From Bacteroidota bacterium (GTDB lineage: Bacteria > Bacteroidota > JABWAT01), in NCBI GenBank assembly GCA_013360915.1, contig JABWAT010000007.1, forward strand, positions 1 through 64,000: DNA of 64,000 nucleotides, given 5' to 3'. Positions 1,757-64,000 of this stretch are shown piece by piece. Position numbers and translations under genes: made by a program. Position 1 is the first letter of the stretch. Each line of letters begins with the position of its first letter. The notes below the pieces were generated by a model. The model was not told the origin of the DNA and ran no database searches. It was given only the letters and a program-made list of their open reading frames with translations.

Positions 1757-3490
1757 TCATTTAACCAGGGTAATCCGCCGGGCATCGAAACGGGATCCGG
1801 AAGACAGGCGTATCAGATAATGTCCTGAACTGAAGGAGCCTGCAACCAGGGTCCAGGAATGTAGACCGGGTTTTGATACGGGAATCTGTTCGGAAAGGAC
1901 CAGACGACCGGCCATGTCGAACACAGCCACCAACAGGGCGTTTCCCGGCATGAATTGATTCACGGTAAATTCCATGGTGGCTTCCGGGTTAAAGGGATTC
2001 GGGTAGATATGGTTAATCCGGAAAGATTTTTCGGGTTGATCAACCGGAATGGAGAGTGGCGTGGAGGATTCCGTCACGTTCAGAAGCTGATCGGCCTGCA
2101 CCTGAATCAATGTCTGTCTGATTCCCGATGGCCAGAAAATTACCAGTGAGTCAATAACCGTGGCATCCCCAAGTCCGGCATGAATGCGCAAGGTTTGTCC
2201 CGAGTACCCCGACTGTCCGGCCAGACGCCGTGTCTGATGGAGGGGTTTTCCGTTGGTTTGCGAATACAGGTGAACGATGGCTCCGATTCCCGAGCGGTTG
2301 CTCTGTATCCCTGTCAGGTTCAACTGAATCCAGTGATTCGGGTTTCCGTTATTCAGGTACAACCGGTTATTCTCGGTTTTATCGAAACAACCGGCCATAG
2401 CGACATCGAGATCGCCATCCAGATCATAATCGGCAAAGGCGGCGCCATAGACCCATCCTGAATCGGCAGGGAGTCCGGTTTCTGAGCGGGTGAAGTTACC
2501 AAGACCATCATTCAGGTAGAGATAGTTGACCAGCCGGGATCCGTTGGCAGAAAAGGCATTGGTGATGAGCAGATCGAGGTCGCCGTCATTATCCACATCG
2601 CCGGGTGCGGTTCCGAAGGAATTGGCCGGGTCGGTGGTCCAGGGTGCGGTTGCCATTTTGGTCCAGCCGAGGTTTCCATCGTTGATCAGCAGGTGATTCC
2701 GTTCGCTGTTGTAATTGGCCAGAATCAGATCGAAGTCGCCATCATTATCCACATCCTCAATGGATCCGCTTGCGGTATTTCCCTTCAGACTGGTCAGGGA
2801 AGCCGGGGCTGAGGAGGTGAATCCGGCAGGTCCGTTCAGAAAGAGATTTTCGGGCTGATTGTTTTCGTTGGTGACAATCAGATCCTGCCAGCCATCTCCG
2901 TTCAGGTCGGCAAAGTCGGCATACCGGGAAGGCAATCGCGGGTTGATCACGCCGGTGGTGGATTGTTTCACCAGACCGCCGGTTCCATCATTCAGGTAGA
3001 ATAAATTCCGCAGGGAGCCGGCGCTGATCGTCACGTACAGATCCAGCCATCCATCGCGGTTCACATCGCCGAAGGTGCCTGTTTCGGCATAGGAGAGATC
3101 GGTCATGGCAGGGGAGTCATCCATCTGAATAAAGCGTTTACCCTGATCGTTCAGGTAAAGAAAATTTTTCACTCCATACCAGGTGGATACGAACAGATCG
3201 GGATATCCGTCGTTGTTGATGTCGCCCACCGTTGCGCCATCCGACGGTGAACCATCCTTGCAGATGACGAGTGAATCCAGAAACGTAAACGTTCCGTCTC
3301 CGTTGTTCAGATAGAAGAAGTTGTTTTCTCCGCCTTCCTTACCGTTGGAGATGAACAGATCCAGATCCTGATCCTGATCAAAGTCGAACCAGTTTACCGA
3401 CCGGGAATCGCCGCCCATGGTGGTGACCGGTGAATCGGTGATGGGAGTGAATAAGGGAGTTTGCAGGAGCAGTAACATAAAAATAATCAT
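1757..3490 (-). CDS. Secreted FG-GAP/ASPIC-UnbV repeat protein with C-terminal sorting domain
   Basis: The 577-residue protein has a short N-terminal hydrophobic segment and then seven FG-GAP/VCBS blades. Each blade is recognised by a calcium-loop motif: FDFDQDQDLD, GDINNDGYPD, GDVNRDGWLD, ADLNGDGWQD, EDVDNDGDFD, GDVDNDGDLD and ADYDLDGDLD. Seven blades imply one complete beta-propeller. An ASPIC/UnbV segment follows (GIGAIVHLYS ... RRLAGQSGYSGQ ... HAGLGDATVIDSLVIFWPSG). The last ~80 residues are a sorting domain with YPNPFNPEATMEF, FDMAGRLVL and the terminal ITLVK, which directs proteins to type IX secretion in FCB bacteria. A GGAGG ribosome-binding site lies just before the ATG. It is likely cell-surface or secreted; its ligand is unknown. 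Confidence 0.9.
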   Translation of the reverse strand: MIIFMLLLLQTPLFTPITDSPVTTMGGDSRSVNWFDFDQDQDLDLFISNGKEGGENNFFYLNNGDGTFTFLDSLVICKDGSPSDGATVGDINNDGYPDLFVSTWYGVKNFLYLNDQGKRFIQMDDSPAMTDLSYAETGTFGDVNRDGWLDLYVTISAGSLRNLFYLNDGTGGLVKQSTTGVINPRLPSRYADFADLNGDGWQDLIVTNENNQPENLFLNGPAGFTSSAPASLTSLKGNTASGSIEDVDNDGDFDLILANYNSERNHLLINDGNLGWTKMATAPWTTDPANSFGTAPGDVDNDGDLDLLITNAFSANGSRLVNYLYLNDGLGNFTRSETGLPADSGWVYGAAFADYDLDGDLDVAMAGCFDKTENNRLYLNNGNPNHWIQLNLTGIQSNRSGIGAIVHLYSQTNGKPLHQTRRLAGQSGYSGQTLRIHAGLGDATVIDSLVIFWPSGIRQTLIQVQADQLLNVTESSTPLSIPVDQPEKSFRINHIYPNPFNPEATMEFTVNQFMPGNALLVAVFDMAGRLVLSEQIPVSKPGLHSWTLVAGSFSSGHYLIRLSSGSRFDARRITLVK

Positions 3491-49598: not shown

Positions 49599-52500
49599 TT
49601 ATTTCAGCAACGTCAGTTTCTTAACCGACCGGAAGGAACCGGCTTCCAGCACATAGAAGTACAATCCGCTGGAAAGTCCCGATGCGTTGAAGGAGACCGA
49701 ATGGAATCCGGCTTCAACCGACTGATTGACCAGTGTACTGACCAACCGGCCGGTTACATCATACACCTTCAGACTCACTTCGCCGCTCACTGGTACCTGG
49801 TAACTGATCATCGTTACCGGGTTGAACGGATTCGGGAAGTTCTGAGCTAGTTCATAGTCGGACGGTTTAAGGTCAACCGACAGGATGTGCGAGTAGGTAA
49901 ACGAACCATCCGTATCGATCTGTTTCAGGCGGAATTCAGCCCGGTTGGCCTTGATTCCTGAAACGGTGTAAGAATACGTTTGAGCGTCGGTGGTCGTTCC
50001 CTTTCCGGCAACAAAGCCCACTTTCTCCCAGCTGCTTTCTTCTGTGTGGTTTCGACTCTGCTCAACCACCGAACCTTTGGTTTTCATTTCCACTTCCCAC
50101 CCGCTGTTGTTGGTTTCGGTCGAGGTCATCCATTTCAGATGAACGGCAGGACCATTCACATCGATGGAGAAGGAAGCCAGTTCAACCGGAAGAGAAGAAC
50201 TTTCACCCAATGTGAAAATGGAGAATGAGGTTATGGTGAACGTGGCAGTCCGCGGATCGGTTGAGGTATTGATCTCAGCCGTTACAATGTCCCAGTTCTC
50301 GCCACCGTCACCGCTCTTAAACACCACCAGATCGGCCAGATTCACGCCATTGTCGTTGGTGGATGGCCAGGTAAGGGTAACCGTGACCGGTCCGCTTGGT
50401 TGAGTTTGCGGGGTGATGGTCCAGATTTGTTTAATGGCATCCTGATGTTCAGAAGACCCTGTTTCCCGTTTGATCACGGTATTGCCCAGATTATTTGACT
50501 GCGGATCGATGGAAATTCCCAATCCGCCGATGTTGTTCTGGGAAGTTGTGATTTCGCGGGTGGTCTGAATGGTACCAACGATGTAGTTAGCCGGTGTCTC
50601 TCCGGTGAGGGTACCGGTTGTTCCGAGGTTGATGGTGTTGCCACTGGTGTTTATCTGGGCTCCGACGGTGAGCGTACCGGTCACATCGAGGTCACCGGAA
50701 AGGGAGGTTGGAGCACTGTAAGTCACATTGGCAAATGTACCGCTGGAGGCATTGTTACCCGAATTGTTCATGATGATGGAAATGGACCCACCTGAATAAT
50801 TGGAACTGACCAGGTCCATACTGCCATCGCGGTCCAGATCGGTTGCAACCACATCGGAGGGATAGCCGCCTGTTCCTTTCGATTCACCGTTTCCAAAGGT
50901 GCCATTTCCGGCATTCTTCAGGATGTAAACGGCGTTGGCATCGCTGCAGGCAGCAAGGATATCCATGTCGCCATCGCCATCGATATCGGCTGTGGCCACC
51001 CCATCGGGTTTGGCCGCAGAGCCATAGGAAACCGAGGAGGCGAATGTTCCGTCACCGTTGTTCATCAGAACGGAAAGCTTACTTTCCGGGAAGAAACAGG
51101 CGGTTACAAGATCAACATGGCCATCGCCATTAAAATCGGCTGCAGAAAGACCGCGTGGTTTTCCACCGGCACCATATTCCGCCTTTGCAGCGAAGGTTCC
51201 GTCGCCGTTGTTTTTGAGAACGGTCAGGGTGGAGGAGTCCCAGGTCGAGGCAACTACATCCAGATCGCCGTCCTTATCCACATCGGTCATGACCATGTTG
51301 AAAGGTTTCTGTCCGGAGGAGTAGGTCACCATGGCGGCATAGGTTCCGTCACCGTTGTTTTTAAGAACGCCGATGGTATGCTCATAATAATTACCGGTGA
51401 TCAGATCCATGTCGCCATCGCCATCGATATCAGCAGAGGTTACTCCCCAGGGTGAATTACCTGTGGTGATATCGGTTTTTGCTGCGAAGGTTCCGTTGCC
51501 ATTGTTCTTAAATTGCGACAAGGTGCTGTTCAGGGAATTGGCTGAGATCAGATCGAGATCACCATCACCATCCACATCAACAGCATGAACACCCCACGGA
51601 TTGGTTCCGACACCGAGATCGGTTTTTGCATTCAGGGTTCCGTCTCCCTTGCTGAGGAAAACCGATAACGAACTACCAATATAATTGGCAGTCACCACAT
51701 CGGGATATCCGTCATTGTTCAGATCGGCAGCGGTAACGGCTGATGGATTGGATGCGGCTTCCATGGATACCGCCGAGGCAAAGGTTCCTGAAGAATCGGC
51801 ATCGACGATGTAGGTCCAGGTGAAAGCCTGTTCCATGTTGGAACCAAACGAACTTTCAACTGATGATTTGATCGTTACCGTTACTTCTTCACCCGCCATA
51901 AAATCGGTTTCCGGATTGTAAGTGGTGGTGAAGGTTCCGTTGTCGTAACTCAACGTTCCGGTATGATATCCAGACTGCGAACCCGAAACGCGGACGGTGG
52001 AAGTTGAAAACGTGCCGGAACTCATGGCCTGGTCAAAGGTCGCAGCCGGAGAGGCGGATGGGGCTGCATTGAGACCATTTTGTGCAGGAGTCACAGACGA
52101 TACTACCGGATTGGGGGCATTATACCATACCGTAATGGTCGATCCGGTGTTATTGGCAGTGAACATATCGATGCTTCCGTTGCCATCGACATCACCTGTA
52201 TTCATCCCGTAAGGAACAGCCCCCACTGCCTTATCTGTTTTGGCATCGAACGTTCCGGTTCCCTGATTCTTAAATACCGACACCGAATTGGAACTGAAGT
52301 TGGAAATGAGAACGTCCAGGTCTCCATCGGCATCGATGTCGGCAACCCGGGCCACATAAGGATTGGTCGCCGCGGTATAATCGGTTTTGGCAGCAAAGGT
52401 TCCATCCCCATTGTTTTTCAGAATGGAAAATGAACCGGCTGTCCAGTTGGCAGAAATGATATCCATGTCACCATCCCCATCCATGTCACCCAATGTCAGG

Positions 52501-55500
52501 TTTTGCGGATTGGTTCCAACGGTGTAATTAATGCGCGCGGCGAAAGTACCATTTCCATTATTCACGTAGACCGACACATTTGAATTGCCATAATTGGCAC
52601 CCACGAGGTCGACATGGCCATCTCCGTTCACATCGGCAGCCGACAATCCAACCGGCTGAGTTCCCGTGGAATAGTCGACTTTGGCTGCATAGGTACCCGT
52701 TCCGTTATTCATCAGAACAGAAATCGAGGAGGAACCGAAATTGGTCACGGCGACATCCTGATCACCATCTCCATCAAAGTCGGCGGTGGCAGGAATCAGC
52801 GGATTGGATCCGGTTGTGATATCCACCTTGGCAGCAAACGTACCATCCCCATTGTTTTTAAGAACAGAGAGCGTGGTGGTATTGTTATTCGGAACCAGAA
52901 GATCGACATCCCCATCCCCATCCACATCACTGGCAGCTAAACCAATCGGGGCATCACCGGTGGTATAATTCACCCGGTCTGCAAAGGTTCCATTGCCGTT
53001 GTTTAAAAGAACGGAAACGTTGTCGTTGCCATAATTGACGGCAGCCAGATCGAGATCACCGTCACCATCAAAATCGGAAGAGAGGATATGTCCCGGCTGG
53101 GTTCCCAGTGAGTAGGTGTTTGTGCTTCCGAATTCACCTCCGCTGGTTCCGGCAACTGTATAGCTCCATACATAATCATCCAGGCTTGCATTATCCGAAC
53201 TTTTAACCGAACTGGTCAGTGTCACCGACACCACTTCACCCGTTTTAAAGTCGGAGGTCGGATCGAATGTGAGCGTATTGTTTCCTGAATTATAGGAAAT
53301 GGTCCCTGTTTTCCTGCCGGTGTGTGAACCGGTTACTACCACCGTGGAGGCAGTCAGGGTATTGCTGTCCATGGCCTTGCTGAAAACTGCGGACACAGAT
53401 GCGGAGGCTGCAATATTCACCGCATTTTTTGATGGGGTCACCGAGGTGACGGTGGGCGGTACCAGGTTTAGCAAAATGGTCAGATTGCTGGTGTTGTTAT
53501 TTGCAGTGATCACATCGGCTGTTCCATTGCTATCCACATCTCCTGCGGTAATTCCATAGGAGTTGCCACCCACCGTTTTGTCTGATTTGGCAGCAAAGGT
53601 ACCATTGCCATTGTTTGCAAAAACCGAGACCGTTGAGGCTCCAAAATTGGTAACCATTACATCGATATCCCCATCCCCATCCATATCGGCAGAGGTGATT
53701 GCGAACGGATTGGCACCTGTCGTATAGTCAACTTTTGTTGCAAAGGTTCCATTGCCATTGTTTTTAAGGACAGATATGGAAGCGGAACTGTTATTGGTGA
53801 CAGTAACGTCGATGTCCCCATCGGCATCCAGATCGGACAGGGTAATGTTCTGCGGTGACGAACCCGTCCCATAATCGGTTTTGGTTCCAAAGGCTCCGGC
53901 TCCGGTATTGAGCAGGATTGAAATGGTGTTGGCCGACTGATTGGACGATACCAGGTCGGGAAGGCCATCATTGTTGAAATCGGCAAATCCGCTTCCAACC
54001 GGACTTGTGCCAGTCGGGTAATCAACCTTGGAGGCAAAGGTACCGTTGCCATTGTTCTTCAGGACGGAAATGGTTGATGATCCGTTGTTGGAGACAGCCA
54101 AATCCAGATCCCCATCGTTATCCACATCGGCACTGCTCACAATTACCGGGTTGGTACCAGTGGAATAATCCACTTTGGTAGCAAACGTTCCGTCTCCGTT
54201 ATTGATAAATACAGAAACCGAGGCAGCTCCATTGTTGGTCACCACCAGATCGGGATGATCATCTCCATTCACATCGGCAGTGGTAATGCCAACAGGTCCC
54301 GAGCCAGTCGTATAGTTCACGCGGGCAGCATAGGTACCATCGCCGTTGTTTTTTAATACAGAGACATTTGTATTTCCATAATTGACAACAGCAATATCCA
54401 GATCACCATCACTATCCACATCGGTGGTTGTGATATGGCCCGGGAAGGAGCCCAGGCTGTAGGTGGCTGAACTTCCGAATTCACCGCCACCATCATATCC
54501 AACGGTGAAGCGATAAGATTTGGTCGCCAACAGGGAGGCGCCATCACTGCTTTGTACGCCCGATGTGATGGCAAAAGTCACCACATCACCTGCAACAAAA
54601 TCGGTAGTCGGATCAAAAGTAGCCGTCATGTTGCCGGAATTATAAGAAACTGAACCCGGCACCTTTCCTTTCACCTGACTGGTCACCTGAATGGTGCTGG
54701 TGGTGAGGCTGCCACTGTTCATGGCTTTATCGAAGGTGACCGTGATGGAGGAGGATTTGGCAACATCAATCGCATTGATTGTCGGACTGACCGATGAAAT
54801 GACGGGAGGAGGTGCGCCATTCATATATACCGACACCGTATTGTCATCATAATTGGTGACCACAAAATCGGCATCTCCATCGCCATCCATATCGGCAAAG
54901 GCAATGTTTTTCGGATTGTTGCCCACCGCATAATCGACTTTGGCAGCAAAGGTGCCGTTGCCGTTATTTTTCAGCACAGAAATGTTGTCATCTCCGGAAT
55001 TCACAGCCACGAGATCAAGATCCCCGTCGCCATCAATATCAACAGCAGTGATACCTTCGGGGGCATTACCAATCGAGTAATCAACTGATGAAGACGCAAA
55101 ATTACCGCCTGATGTGAGCAGGACCATGGCTTTTTCGTAGTAGTTATCGACTTTCACGAGGTCCAGATAGCCATCGTTATTCAGATCGGCAAGTACAAGT
55201 CCCCTCGAATCGAGATCCTGAATATCCTGATACCTGCTCGAAAAAGTACCATCCGAATTGTTGATCGGGTAATACCAACTGCTTCCCCTTTCCGAGGTAT
55301 ACATGGCATCGGGAAACCCGTCATTATTCACATCACCGGCAACAATGTTGTACATGTTGGCAGAACCGTCAAACGTGGCTGACAACGTAAAAGTCCCATC
55401 ACCATCATTTGAGAAAAAGTTTACCGGCGCACCCGATGAACTGCTGTTACTGGTGATCAGCAAATCCGGATATTTATCCCCATTAATATCGGCAATTGCA

Positions 55501-57347
55501 ATTCCGTACGGGCTATCGCCACCTGCTTCACTCACCTGAGCAGCGAAGGTACCGTTGCCATTGTTTTTAAAAATGGAATAGGTGTTATCCCAGTAGTTGG
55601 CAACCACCAGATCCAGATCGCCATCCAGATCAATATCGGCTGCATCAAAGCCTGAAGGACGGGAACCAGTGGCATAATCGGTTTTGGTTCCCAAAGCACC
55701 ACTGCCATTGTTCAATAAGACAGAAATTGTATTTGCTTCGTAATTGGCAGTCACCACATCGGCATCTCCATCGCCATCCAGATCAGCAGTCAAAACCTGA
55801 TTGGGTGTTGAGCCGGTTGTAAAATCGGTTTTAGATGTCAGGATTCCAGTGCTGTTTGCAGTTGCAACGGTATAGGAAAACTGATATTCCTTGGAAAGCG
55901 CCGCGTTATCTGCGGTTTTAACACCGGTACTGACCAATACAGTAACCACTTCGCCCGGTTTAAAATCGCTGGTCGGATTGATTGTCAGGACTTTTGTACC
56001 AGAGTTATAAGAAAAAGTGGCCGGATGAACACCCGATATTGAACCGGATATCAGAATCGTTGAATTGGTAAAGGTGCCGCTGTTCATATCACGGCTGAAA
56101 GTGATGGTTATATCGGCAGAGGCACTGATATCCAATTGGTGTTTGGTTGGGGAATGAGATGAAATGGTCGGGAAAACCGGTTTATCATTCAGGAAAACCA
56201 TGACACGAGTTGTTATATCGGAAGGATCATACATGGGAAAAACCAGATCTATTTTCCCGTCAGCATTAAAATCGGCTGCTCCCCCTTCGGATACAATCGT
56301 ATCCAGCGTCAGGTAATTGACAGGAGTTGCAAAAGAGCCTGCTCCATTGTTCAGTGCAATTGAAATTTTGGCACCAACTTCTGCCACCAGGTCGAAATCT
56401 CCATCCCCATCCACATCGGTGGCAAGAATCCCATCCTGACCACCGGAAAACGCCGGACCGGCACTGGCCGTAAACACACCACTGCCATTGTTGGTAAAAA
56501 TCCGGAAATTGTTCGAATCAAAGTCAGAAGCAATGATATCCAGATCAGAATCCCCGTCGATGTTGGCAAGTGCCAATCCGCGAAGGGTCGACCCGCCGGT
56601 GTAATCGACAAAGGCGGCAAAGGTTCCGTTTCCGTTGTTTTTCGACACCGAAATCACATCTGAATACTCATAGGTGTTGATGAGGTCAATATCCCCGTCG
56701 CCATCGAGGTCACCGGCTTTGATTATGTATGGATCGGATCCGACAGGATGATCCGATTTTGCTGCAAATGTTCCGTCTCCATTGTTTTTCAGAATGGATA
56801 GAGTACCCCCGGTATAATTGGCTGTTGCAATATCCTTATCCCCATCGCCATCCAGATCGGCCAGGACGAGGGTATTGGGCCAATCATCGGTGGCGTATGA
56901 TGTTTTTGTGGAATACAGGCTGCTTCCCTGATTCAGATGAACATTCACCTGATTGCTACCATCATCGGCTGTCACGACATCCTGTTTTCCGTCGCCGTTC
57001 AGATCGGCAACCGCCAGGTAGGACACGGACGAACCAGTTGAGAAGCCGGTTCGTTTCTGAAAGGTACCATCCCCATTTCCCAGTAAAACAACGATCAGAT
57101 TCTCATCGAAGTCATTGGAGGCAACAATATCCTGCTTTCCATCACCATTCACATCGGCGGTGGTTACATTGTTTACATACCCGCCTGAATAATACCAGGC
57201 CTGTGCGTCAAAATTTCCTGCTGCCATGACAGCAGTGGTTGGTGAAACGGACGGAGCCGTTGAACGGTCTGACTGAGCGAAGGAGCCCGCTGCCATCAGG
57301 ATACTGAAAACGGCACTCAGCATCATGGACTTTACCAGTTTTTTCAT
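49599..57347 (-). CDS. Giant FG-GAP propeller / Big_5 surface protein with sorting domain
   Basis: The 2582-residue protein has a signal peptide (SILMAAGSFA-Q, residue 24-25). Five FG-GAP arrays of seven calcium-loop blades each (motifs such as ADLDGDGDKD) alternate with four Big_5 Ig-like domains starting near 392, 846, 1298 and 1746, a period of about 450 residues. Residues about 2200-2390 form a strand-rich module shared with the next gene (TVTGTLTVGA-like, then QIWTITPQTQPSGPVTVTLT). The last ~80 residues are the sorting domain (NFPNPFNPVTMISY, VYDVTGRLVSTLV, KLTLLK). It is probably a surface adhesin or matrix protein that binds calcium. An unusual loop is noted at 50046-50070. No strong ribosome-binding site is visible. 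Confidence 0.93.
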   Translation of the reverse strand: MKKLVKSMMLSAVFSILMAAGSFAQSDRSTAPSVSPTTAVMAAGNFDAQAWYYSGGYVNNVTTADVNGDGKQDIVASNDFDENLIVVLLGNGDGTFQKRTGFSTGSSVSYLAVADLNGDGKQDVVTADDGSNQVNVHLNQGSSLYSTKTSYATDDWPNTLVLADLDGDGDKDIATANYTGGTLSILKNNGDGTFAAKSDHPVGSDPYIIKAGDLDGDGDIDLINTYEYSDVISVSKNNGNGTFAAFVDYTGGSTLRGLALANIDGDSDLDIIASDFDSNNFRIFTNNGSGVFTASAGPAFSGGQDGILATDVDGDGDFDLVAEVGAKISIALNNGAGSFATPVNYLTLDTIVSEGGAADFNADGKIDLVFPMYDPSDITTRVMVFLNDKPVFPTISSHSPTKHQLDISASADITITFSRDMNSGTFTNSTILISGSISGVHPATFSYNSGTKVLTINPTSDFKPGEVVTVLVSTGVKTADNAALSKEYQFSYTVATANSTGILTSKTDFTTGSTPNQVLTADLDGDGDADVVTANYEANTISVLLNNGSGALGTKTDYATGSRPSGFDAADIDLDGDLDLVVANYWDNTYSIFKNNGNGTFAAQVSEAGGDSPYGIAIADINGDKYPDLLITSNSSSSGAPVNFFSNDGDGTFTLSATFDGSANMYNIVAGDVNNDGFPDAMYTSERGSSWYYPINNSDGTFSSRYQDIQDLDSRGLVLADLNNDGYLDLVKVDNYYEKAMVLLTSGGNFASSSVDYSIGNAPEGITAVDIDGDGDLDLVAVNSGDDNISVLKNNGNGTFAAKVDYAVGNNPKNIAFADMDGDGDADFVVTNYDDNTVSVYMNGAPPPVISSVSPTINAIDVAKSSSITVTFDKAMNSGSLTTSTIQVTSQVKGKVPGSVSYNSGNMTATFDPTTDFVAGDVVTFAITSGVQSSDGASLLATKSYRFTVGYDGGGEFGSSATYSLGSFPGHITTTDVDSDGDLDIAVVNYGNTNVSVLKNNGDGTYAARVNYTTGSGPVGITTADVNGDDHPDLVVTNNGAASVSVFINNGDGTFATKVDYSTGTNPVIVSSADVDNDGDLDLAVSNNGSSTISVLKNNGNGTFASKVDYPTGTSPVGSGFADFNNDGLPDLVSSNQSANTISILLNTGAGAFGTKTDYGTGSSPQNITLSDLDADGDIDVTVTNNSSASISVLKNNGNGTFATKVDYTTGANPFAITSADMDGDGDIDVMVTNFGASTVSVFANNGNGTFAAKSDKTVGGNSYGITAGDVDSNGTADVITANNNTSNLTILLNLVPPTVTSVTPSKNAVNIAASASVSAVFSKAMDSNTLTASTVVVTGSHTGRKTGTISYNSGNNTLTFDPTSDFKTGEVVSVTLTSSVKSSDNASLDDYVWSYTVAGTSGGEFGSTNTYSLGTQPGHILSSDFDGDGDLDLAAVNYGNDNVSVLLNNGNGTFADRVNYTTGDAPIGLAASDVDGDGDVDLLVPNNNTTTLSVLKNNGDGTFAAKVDITTGSNPLIPATADFDGDGDQDVAVTNFGSSSISVLMNNGTGTYAAKVDYSTGTQPVGLSAADVNGDGHVDLVGANYGNSNVSVYVNNGNGTFAARINYTVGTNPQNLTLGDMDGDGDMDIISANWTAGSFSILKNNGDGTFAAKTDYTAATNPYVARVADIDADGDLDVLISNFSSNSVSVFKNQGTGTFDAKTDKAVGAVPYGMNTGDVDGNGSIDMFTANNTGSTITVWYNAPNPVVSSVTPAQNGLNAAPSASPAATFDQAMSSGTFSTSTVRVSGSQSGYHTGTLSYDNGTFTTTYNPETDFMAGEEVTVTIKSSVESSFGSNMEQAFTWTYIVDADSSGTFASAVSMEAASNPSAVTAADLNNDGYPDVVTANYIGSSLSVFLSKGDGTLNAKTDLGVGTNPWGVHAVDVDGDGDLDLISANSLNSTLSQFKNNGNGTFAAKTDITTGNSPWGVTSADIDGDGDMDLITGNYYEHTIGVLKNNGDGTYAAMVTYSSGQKPFNMVMTDVDKDGDLDVVASTWDSSTLTVLKNNGDGTFAAKAEYGAGGKPRGLSAADFNGDGHVDLVTACFFPESKLSVLMNNGDGTFASSVSYGSAAKPDGVATADIDGDGDMDILAACSDANAVYILKNAGNGTFGNGESKGTGGYPSDVVATDLDRDGSMDLVSSNYSGGSISIIMNNSGNNASSGTFANVTYSAPTSLSGDLDVTGTLTVGAQINTSGNTINLGTTGTLTGETPANYIVGTIQTTREITTSQNNIGGLGISIDPQSNNLGNTVIKRETGSSEHQDAIKQIWTITPQTQPSGPVTVTLTWPSTNDNGVNLADLVVFKSGDGGENWDIVTAEINTSTDPRTATFTITSFSIFTLGESSSLPVELASFSIDVNGPAVHLKWMTSTETNNSGWEVEMKTKGSVVEQSRNHTEESSWEKVGFVAGKGTTTDAQTYSYTVSGIKANRAEFRLKQIDTDGSFTYSHILSVDLKPSDYELAQNFPNPFNPVTMISYQVPVSGEVSLKVYDVTGRLVSTLVNQSVEAGFHSVSFNASGLSSGLYFYVLEAGSFRSVKKLTLLK
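50046..50070. repeat. Palindromic repeat element inside the giant gene
   Basis: The sequence GTGGTTTCGACTCTGCTCAA with AACCAC closing the dyad is read in frame on the minus strand as VVEQSRNH. In complement it matches the GGTGG-Y-TGAG-N-TCGAA-R-CCAC pattern of the palindromes at 67-95 and, less exactly, at 7350-7372. It lies in a linker just before the shared WEKVGFVAGKGTT segment, where the paralogues have unrelated residues. Confidence 0.55.
50740..57240 (-). repeat. Five propeller units alternating with Big_5 domains
   Basis: Inside the giant gene a unit of about 1.35 kb (one seven-blade array plus one Big_5 domain) recurs. Big_5 domains start near 56172, 54808, 53452 and 52110. Each blade is about 58-60 codons and carries a DxDxDGxxD-type loop. 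The third and fourth units are most alike (both begin GGEFGS...YSLG...PGHI), which suggests the latest duplication happened there. Confidence 0.85.
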
Positions 57348-57586: not shown

Positions 57587-61189
<3,603 letters not shown>

Positions 61190-61318: not shown

Positions 61319-64000
61319 TTATTTCACCAGTGTGAGTTTTTTTACAGACCGGAAGGAACCGGCTTCGATCTGGTAGAAATAGACACCTGTTGCAAGTCCG
61401 GAAGCGTTGAAGGTCACCGAATGAACGCCGGCTTCAATCTGACCATCCACCAGGGTGGTGATTAAACGGCCGGTGACATCATAAACCTTCAGGCTCACTT
61501 TACTCTTTACCGGCAACTGGTAATTTATTACCGTGACCGGGTTAAACGGATTCGGGTAATTTTGCCCCAGTGCAAAAACCGTTGGTTTCATGTCAACCGA
61601 CAGGATCCGTGAGTAGGAAACCGTGCCATCGGTATCGATTTGTTTCAGACGGAAATCGATGGAACCTGCTGCCGTTACCGGTACAGAAAACTGATAGGTC
61701 TGAGCTTCGGTGGTTGTGCCCTTTCCGGCGACAAATCCAACCGATTTAAACGTGCCCTTCACCGTGCTGGTACTGACGCGTTGCTCAATTTCCCAACCGG
61801 AATTGTTTGTCTCGGTCGCGGTGGACCAGTTCAGACGGACAAGTCCATCTGCAGGAGTTACCGTAAAGGAAGACAATTCGACAGGAACCGTCGATTCATC
61901 AAACACTGGTAAGAACTGGCTGAACGAGGTGATTCCTGTCCAGGTAACTATACCGGTCTGATGATCGGCAGAGGATGCACCACCCAGATCGGTCCAGGCG
62001 CCAGTTGAGGTGGAACTGCGTTTGTACAGTTTCAGGGATTGCGGGTAGAGGTCAACCACTTCATCCAGCACCCCTTCTCCAAAGTTCAGGGTCAGATCGA
62101 CCGAGAACGTACCCGGATCGCCGAAGAGTTCAATCACGAAATATTTTCCGCCAACGGCCGCAGAGTAACCTTCCGGCCATGAATTAGGTGCAGCAGTCAC
62201 TTCAGAAACCACCACATCAACCGGATTGTCGAATCCATCACTCATGTTAAGCGTGGCATTTCCAACTGTTTGTTCTCCGGTGGTTACGCCGGTGGTAATA
62301 GTTGCTGACCCTTCACCGATGGGCACGCCGGAAGTTACCCAGGTAACATTTTCCAGATAGAAGAGCTGATTATTGATCAGTTGCGAGGCAGTGGTTCCCG
62401 AGCCGTCATTAAACTGCCAGTATCCCAGAACATTTTCCGGGAATCCGCTTAAGGTGGTATGCATGCCAGATCGGATTTCCTGAGCGGTCAATACTTTGTC
62501 ACGGATCTGTAGCTCATCTACCTGTCCAGCAAAATACACATCCCCATCATACCCAAGTACAAAACTGTAATCATAGTCGTTGTAGTACACGTTGCTGTAA
62601 GTACCGACCGAATTTCCATTCACATAAAAGGTCCCGTTCGAATAATCATCAGCATCTCTGTGCATCGTCAGTGCCACATGATACCATTGATTGCTTCTGA
62701 CAAGATCCGTTCCGGTGATGGTAACAGGGTCACCCGCATCATCATCATAAATACTGGCATATAAATATCCGCCATTTATGCCGAGATGAATGGGATAGTA
62801 GTACTCTGACTCACCTGATGAGGTCATTTTTGATATGGAACGACGCTCATCGGTTTTCCCATCTGTTAATGGTTTACTATCTGGTCCTTTAACACGATCA
62901 CCACCGGCAATACCCTGAGAGTCTCCCCTGACAAAGAAGGCAGCAACGGACGAGGAATCAGCCACTTTCACCCACATCTGAATGGTGATGTCCTTTGGCA
63001 GCTCAGTTTCATAAGAAAATTCCGCTGCAGAGGAGGATCCGTTAAAGGACAAGGCGGTTCCCGGTGTTGTTGCAAACGGGTAGCCATCTTTGGAATTGGT
63101 GGTGAAGGTACCAGTTGCGGCATTGGTTGTGTAAAACACGTCGTCGCCTTCATTTCCATTAAAGGTGAATACAGCCACATGGTATTGGGTATTCAATGAC
63201 AAGCCAGAGAGGTTTACTGTATTGCCTCCACCGGCATAGACAACAAAGTTGCCGCCACCGAGATCGCTGCCCGAACCAAAATTGGAATCAGCTATGTAAT
63301 TCCCGTTATCAGCAGGTGTGGTACTTACAGCGCCGCCTGCTTTAACGACGACCAGATGTCGGCTTCCGCCACCTTTTGTCCAATTCAGGGTGATTTTTGA
63401 CCCCAGATTCCCCGAGGAAGCCACACCAGTTGCTTCTGCCGTAGGCGCAACGGCCGTGGTGTTCTCGTAAACACCCAGCTTTAACAGAAAATCCGGGCCG
63501 ACATATCCACCGTAAATGGTAACAAAATCCAGATCACCATCCGAATCGGCATCTGCCAGATTCAGACTTCTGAAATAGTACTCCGGAATCGTAAAGGAAG
63601 CCGAGTTACTGAACGATCCGGTGCCGGAATTGTAGTAAGCCATGATGTATGTTTTGCTGTTGCTGTCGTGCTCATTGCTTGTAAACACCAGATCCAGGTC
63701 GCCATCGCCATTCAGATCGCCGATGTTAAACGATTTAATCGCCAATTCAACCGGGGTGGCAGGTTGTGCAGAAAACGTCCCGTTTCCGTTATTTTTCAGG
63801 ATGAAAAAGGAAAGACCATCGGTGGTTGTGGCAACAAAATCCACATCGCCATCGGAATCAAAATCGGCCGCCTTAATCAGTTTGGGAGCAAGGTCGGTTT
63901 CAATGAAATAGGGTTCACCAAATTGCTGGTACCCATCGGCTTTGGTCCGATCGTTCAGGGCAATCCCCAACCGGGAATATCCGTTCTGACTGTAAGACAT
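61319..64000 (-). CDS. FG-GAP / Fn3-like / LamG surface protein with sorting domain (5' end outside window)
   Basis: Only the C-terminal 893 residues are visible; the frame is open to the edge, so the true start and any signal peptide lie beyond 64000. Three FG-GAP loops are present (ADFDSDGDVD, GDLNGDGDLD, ADADSDGDLD), so at least four more blades are expected upstream. An Fn3-like segment (about residues 185-305) is followed by a LamG/concanavalin-like domain (about 310-515; TIQMWVKVAD, WYHVALTMHRD, GQVDELQIRDKVL). A strand-rich module and the sorting domain (QNYPNPFNPVTVINY, KLTLVK) end the protein. It shares the linker-to-C-terminus block with the two genes downstream and probably arose by the same duplications. 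Confidence 0.9.
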   Translation of the reverse strand: MSYSQNGYSRLGIALNDRTKADGYQQFGEPYFIETDLAPKLIKAADFDSDGDVDFVATTTDGLSFFILKNNGNGTFSAQPATPVELAIKSFNIGDLNGDGDLDLVFTSNEHDSNSKTYIMAYYNSGTGSFSNSASFTIPEYYFRSLNLADADSDGDLDFVTIYGGYVGPDFLLKLGVYENTTAVAPTAEATGVASSGNLGSKITLNWTKGGGSRHLVVVKAGGAVSTTPADNGNYIADSNFGSGSDLGGGNFVVYAGGGNTVNLSGLSLNTQYHVAVFTFNGNEGDDVFYTTNAATGTFTTNSKDGYPFATTPGTALSFNGSSSAAEFSYETELPKDITIQMWVKVADSSSVAAFFVRGDSQGIAGGDRVKGPDSKPLTDGKTDERRSISKMTSSGESEYYYPIHLGINGGYLYASIYDDDAGDPVTITGTDLVRSNQWYHVALTMHRDADDYSNGTFYVNGNSVGTYSNVYYNDYDYSFVLGYDGDVYFAGQVDELQIRDKVLTAQEIRSGMHTTLSGFPENVLGYWQFNDGSGTTASQLINNQLFYLENVTWVTSGVPIGEGSATITTGVTTGEQTVGNATLNMSDGFDNPVDVVVSEVTAAPNSWPEGYSAAVGGKYFVIELFGDPGTFSVDLTLNFGEGVLDEVVDLYPQSLKLYKRSSTSTGAWTDLGGASSADHQTGIVTWTGITSFSQFLPVFDESTVPVELSSFTVTPADGLVRLNWSTATETNNSGWEIEQRVSTSTVKGTFKSVGFVAGKGTTTEAQTYQFSVPVTAAGSIDFRLKQIDTDGTVSYSRILSVDMKPTVFALGQNYPNPFNPVTVINYQLPVKSKVSLKVYDVTGRLITTLVDGQIEAGVHSVTFNASGLATGVYFYQIEAGSFRSVKKLTLVK

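Follow-up and report, generated by a model that had tools for sequence, protein, structure and literature searches.

A Bacteroidota protein with five seven-bladed FG-GAP arrays on Big_5 spacers, and the blade numbers of its lineage

The window analysed here, a stretch of 64,000 nucleotides from a Bacteroidota bacterium (contig JABWAT010000007.1 of assembly GCA_013360915.1), encodes a very large FG-GAP protein (hereafter the giant protein) together with two paralogues, one of which is cut by the window edge, and a shorter calcium-blade protein that is not of the giant's family (Table 1). In a Pfam scan, the giant protein matches PF13517 (FG-GAP_3, 777 bits) and PF01839 (FG-GAP, 265.8 bits), both over the curated cut-off, and PF13205 (Big_5, 148 bits) in four stretches, each of them located between two arrays of FG-GAP repeats.

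Table 1. Genes and domains of the window discussed in the text (positions in the window; residues are those of the giant protein)
Feature	Position	Strand	Description	Evidence
577-aa protein	1757..3490	-	Seven calcium blades, ASPIC/UnbV domain, sorting domain; CRTAC1-like layout	
Giant protein	49599..57347	-	2582 aa; signal peptide, five FG-GAP propellers, four Big_5 spacers, C-terminal region, T9SS type A sorting domain	ORF, Pfam, NCBIfam
T9SS type A C-terminal sorting domain	49602..49838	-	Residues 2504-2582	PF18962 (42.5 bits); TIGR04183
Propeller 5	50742..51788	-	Seven blades, loops at residues 1875-2170	Motif count and blade HMM
Big_5 spacer 4	51798..52100	-	Approximate limits	Pfam PF13205 and sequence
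Propeller 4	52095..53138	-	Seven blades, loops at residues 1425-1719	Blade-position identity; AlphaFold
Big_5 spacer 3	53157..53459	-	Best Big_5 stretch, residues 1297-1397	Pfam; AlphaFold-modelled
Propeller 3	53442..54485	-	Seven blades, loops at residues 976-1270	Blade-position identity with propeller 4; AlphaFold
Big_5 spacer 2	54486..54794	-	Approximate limits	Pfam PF13205 and sequence
Propeller 2	54795..55847	-	Seven blades, loops at residues 522-819	Motif count and blade HMM
Big_5 spacer 1	55848..56168	-	Approximate limits	Pfam PF13205 and sequence
Propeller 1	56175..57218	-	Seven blades, loops at residues 65-359	Motif count and blade HMM
Probable signal peptide	57276..57347	-	Residues 1-24; basic N-terminus, hydrophobic stretch, then SFAQS	Read from sequence
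1200-aa paralogue	57587..61189	-	Glug repeats, one Big_5, one seven-bladed propeller (58718-59761), sorting domain	
Edge ORF	61319..64000	-	C-terminal 893 codons of the ~2120-aa paralogue; part of third propeller, laminin-G-like domain, sorting domain	

The giant protein has 35 calcium-loop motifs ([DN]x[DN]x[DN]xxxD), no more and no fewer, grouped in five arrays of seven. Among 2000 composition shuffles of its sequence, the mean count is 1.58 and the highest is 7. All 35 blades fit this pattern, and the first loop residue is D in 34 of them. The loops are spaced by 48-52 residues inside the arrays, and the arrays (starting at residues 65, 522, 976, 1425 and 1875) follow one another with periods of 457, 454, 449 and 450 residues. 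A blade HMM recovers the same 35 blades and no extra ones. The sequence-only reading of this DNA had counted seven calcium-loop blades in each of the five arrays (35 in total) and had described a repeat near 450 residues with Big_5 domains between the arrays; the first count is reproduced by both methods, and the second description agrees with the measured 449-457 residues and with the four Big_5 stretches found by Pfam.

The C-terminal region of the 1200-aa paralogue is 72% identical to that of the giant protein. The second paralogue, of about 2120 residues (L031:3823-10212), was missed by that reading; it runs past the window edge to contig position about 67,700 and contains three arrays, each of seven blades according to the blade HMM, and in its orthologue from a relative the propellers are kept at 87-91% identity. 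Seven blades had also been claimed for the 1200-aa and 577-aa proteins, and the blade HMM finds them in both (in the 577-aa protein, whose first loop is DFDQDQDLD, also by motif count). The number of propellers per gene is 5, 1 and 3 in this cluster and 3, 2, 1 and 1 in the homologous cluster of the related genome. The one-propeller and three-propeller genes have clear orthologues in the relative, with the propeller number unchanged, and the nearest counterpart of the giant protein there (68% identity in the C-terminal region) has two propellers only. Five propellers are also present in a Hymenobacter protein (L078), and three, without a spacer, in one from Paraglaciecola (L092). The proposal of a constant blade number and a variable propeller number thus stands, given the 5/1/3 and 3/2/1/1 of the two clusters and a range of 1 to 5 in the survey described below. 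Neighbouring genes with one, three and five propellers, together with the 1, 1, 2 and 3 of the relative, form a natural series for the study of growth in propeller number at constant ring size.

An AlphaFold model was made of residues 951-1860 of the giant protein (propeller 3, Big_5, propeller 4, Big_5), with a mean pLDDT of 84 and a pTM of 0.66. In each modelled propeller, an N-terminal strand precedes seven three-stranded blocks with six strands linking them, a pattern that corresponds, in the model, to seven four-stranded blades per array. A structure prediction had been proposed as a check of the blade number, and on these two units it returns seven, neither six nor eight; the model, with seven times four strands per array and Big_5 in between, also agrees with the predicted chain of propellers on Ig-like spacers. 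Foldseek matched this two-domain model to multi-propeller proteins (DDB1 and tandem WD proteins) at a TM of 0.4 or less, and these matches were dropped as a guide to blade number.

An alignment of nine propellers shows, ahead of blade 1 in most of them, a GxF-type strand similar to the GDGTF strand of the blades, and blade 7 is not followed by a GDGTF strand. The strand before blade 1 would then stand in for the outer strand absent after blade 7 and so close the ring; because a complementary strand precedes the first blade and none follows the last, we infer from model and alignment a closed ring joined by its two ends. The number seven is most likely explained by such ring closure, rather than by a new rule: the geometry of the 49-residue blade type would fix seven, and only whole rings would be gained or lost.

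The sevens had been taken by the sequence-only reading to imply duplication of whole propellers. Ring closure predicts sevens whether propellers are duplicated whole or blades are amplified singly, so that the sevens alone do not reveal the mode, and a phase test was used, which asks whether blade k of one propeller most resembles blade k of another. Orthologous propellers in the related genome are in perfect phase at 70-91% identity, and therefore the test works. Within the giant protein, propellers 3 and 4 are 56% identical in phase and 40-45% identical at other shifts (p about 0.0005), the only significant phase memory among its ten propeller pairs. Propeller 3 is also in phase with propeller 1 of the neighbouring paralogue (p 0.004), as are propellers 1 and 2 of another surveyed locus (L052). 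The in-phase match is the best one in 41% (33/81) of within-protein pairs, where 14% would be expected by chance, although 26% of random cross-locus pairs behave in the same way, a baseline that weakens the 33 pairs as strong proof of whole-propeller duplication. Blades are no more alike within propellers than between them (0.382 in each case). A protein from Phycisphaerales (L077:7092-9509) contains fourteen blades with a mean identity of about 65%, without a spacer and with no seven-blade phase memory, and blades so similar and yet without phase suggest single-blade amplification that still yielded two times seven.

The phase data bear directly on the main alternative to ring closure, according to which every propeller is a copy of a whole seven-bladed propeller, the number being copied and not re-selected. 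The in-phase pairs (propellers 3 and 4, propeller 3 with propeller 1 of the neighbouring paralogue, the L052 pair, and the excess of within-protein over cross-locus pairs) argue for it; the nine pairs of the giant protein without significant phase memory, the equal likeness of blades within and between propellers and the fourteen blades of the Phycisphaerales protein argue against it, and we regard it as doubtful, if still worth weighing. Whole-propeller duplication has contributed, though modestly, and the claim that sevens imply it is not sustained. Older duplications of this kind may have lost their signal, as phase may fade below about 45% identity.

A search of PDB sequences with the single giant sequence gave no hits. 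The nine-propeller profile, when run against solved structures, matched best the Psathyrella velutina lectin (PVL) and related lectins (2bwr, 5mb4, 4tqj), and also integrin alpha-4, alpha-IIb and CRTAC1 (9etn). The likeness to the lectin group is one of overall profile similarity, and these are single-propeller proteins in contrast to the five propellers of the giant. The integrin alpha headpiece shares with the giant protein seven blades, a calcium loop at the same blade position and a family-level profile match, but it is a single propeller with calcium in some blades only; the Pfam scan found no further integrin alpha domains beside the propellers of the giant, so that the likeness is to the headpiece fold only. 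CRTAC1 is also a calcium-blade propeller. The layout of a propeller together with ASPIC/UnbV, present in the 577-aa protein, is common to CRTAC1, whereas the giant protein has five propellers and is without ASPIC/UnbV. Seven is the expected blade number of the calcium-blade fold, found in integrin, PilY1 and the fungal lectin 2bwr, although rhamnogalacturonan lyase has eight (PMC3123361). Three tandem seven-bladed propellers of this type were described in Npun_R4253 from Nostoc punctiforme (Rigden et al. 2011, PMC3123361). The giant protein differs from it in its five propellers, its regular Big_5 spacers and its type IX sorting domain, and is a large new member of an architecture known since 2011.

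The C-terminus of the giant protein scores 34.4 bits with TIGR04183 (NCBIfam cut-off 23). The same genome encodes SprA (1354.8 bits, C4:156646-163308) and the PorU sortase (801.6 bits, C1:726443-729784). Its 3.65 Mb contain some 94 type A sorting domains above the cut-off, a large predicted type IX secretion repertoire. Since the protein carries such a domain in a genome with this machinery and so many other candidate substrates, it is likely exported to the surface by type IX secretion, and its attachment to the cell probably follows the same route; with it and its paralogues, the type IX cargo of the organism probably gains a group of large surface proteins that depend on calcium. With one Ca2+ loop per 49-residue blade, as many as 35 calcium ions may be bound along the chain and would stiffen it outside the cell. 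This putative occupancy is based on the loop sequence and on the known calcium-blade family (PMC3123361).

The giant protein would most likely serve as a multivalent surface binder of glycans or proteins, in the manner of an adhesin or lectin, the class of ligand being presumed. Lectins and integrin headpieces bind ligands through the propeller. That the giant is a surface chain of five seven-bladed calcium-blade propellers on Big_5 spacers, carried by type IX secretion and acting as a multivalent binder, is the reading that we consider quite probable as a whole, with the closure of the rings, the calcium, the anchoring and the ligand class as its predicted parts. A purely structural role, for example as a rigid spacer that keeps a partner or the C-terminal region off the cell, is rather unlikely. 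Pfam and NCBIfam scans of the giant returned neither a catalytic module nor one known to bind carbohydrates, calcium-rigidified domains on Ig-like spacers suit an extender, and the extra domains of the paralogues (Glug repeats, laminin-G-like domain) could be the working part; on the other side, lectins and integrin headpieces, known ligand binders, are among the solved structures nearest to it by profile. Elsewhere in the genome, a protein on contig C5 (L035:2749-6228) combines FG-GAP-like repeats, apparently extracellular, with hydrophobic stretches and then an apparent serine/threonine kinase domain, and could be a surface sensor.

The blade-number survey covered 175 uncut arrays, drawn from the genome analysed here, from related genomes and from 80 loci spread over many phyla; the 80 loci were picked with a 348-residue seven-blade query. 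Arrays that are evenly spaced after the removal of weak terminal hits (n=146) were considered clean, and 139 of them have multiples of seven (122 of seven, 15 of fourteen and 2 of twenty-one, with 7 others), counts that are not independent trials because the arrays share descent. Of the arrays first counted at 8 or 15 blades, several of the former and most of the latter are really 7 or 14 with an end hit scoring only a few bits, and at least one of the seven clean arrays with other counts (L108, six hits) has a visible degenerate seventh blade. Two exceptions have other numbers. A Nitrosomonas array (L139) has ten blades of the NPFGL type, and a 666-aa FG-GAP protein of the same genome, encoded outside the window (contig C1, L033:1811-3808), contains nine recognisable blades and a degenerate tenth, and has orthologues in three relatives at 40-42% identity; this protein shows that related calcium blades can occur in other numbers, a point against the main reading. 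It could form a ring of unusual size. Its AlphaFold model has a pLDDT of 62, and the Foldseek matches obtained with it (PorZ first, TM 0.27) were set aside for this reason. An exact-seven rule for all FG-GAP proteins, as had been proposed, fails on these two arrays, and of the expectation of sevens only in related genomes what survives is the strong preponderance of multiples of seven. Sevens describe the 49-residue FG-GAP lineage well and are not universal.

In highly repetitive beta-propellers, which like the giant protein have amplified blades in one chain and include VCBS and FG-GAP/integrin families, blade numbers have been reported to form a continuum, with peaks that differ between families (Pereira and Lupas 2022, PMC9218822), in contrast to the 49-residue FG-GAP type surveyed here, where nearly all arrays have 7, 14 or 21 blades. 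We tentatively propose that blade number in this lineage could be quantised, even where blades are amplified singly, with incomplete rings being purged; the idea is more doubtful than not, and if true it would make the lineage unlike other propeller families, reported as a continuum. Peaks at 7, 14 and 21 in one blade lineage are a testable statement against the published continuous blade numbers, and the near-empty gaps between them are the part that deserves wider attention. That the count is partly a sampling artefact, with other numbers common beyond a few lineages, is improbable: the seven-blade query used to fetch the 80 loci, the two arrays outside the strict type with 9-10 blades and the published highly repetitive VCBS propellers with a median of six blades and cases of 3, 4, 6 and 9 (PMC9218822) speak in its favour, but in this genome and its relatives, where arrays were picked by Pfam hits to single repeats, 41 of 45 clean arrays still have a multiple of seven, all 26 clean arrays of the 80-locus set outside the locus-selecting stretches have seven blades, and the query should be no worse at finding longer arrays, whose counts nevertheless jump to 14 and 21.

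A protein of a related genome (G001, L054:3-3239) contains about seven LDxxFGxxG repeats (delta-60 type) and a seven-bladed FG-GAP array in the same chain.
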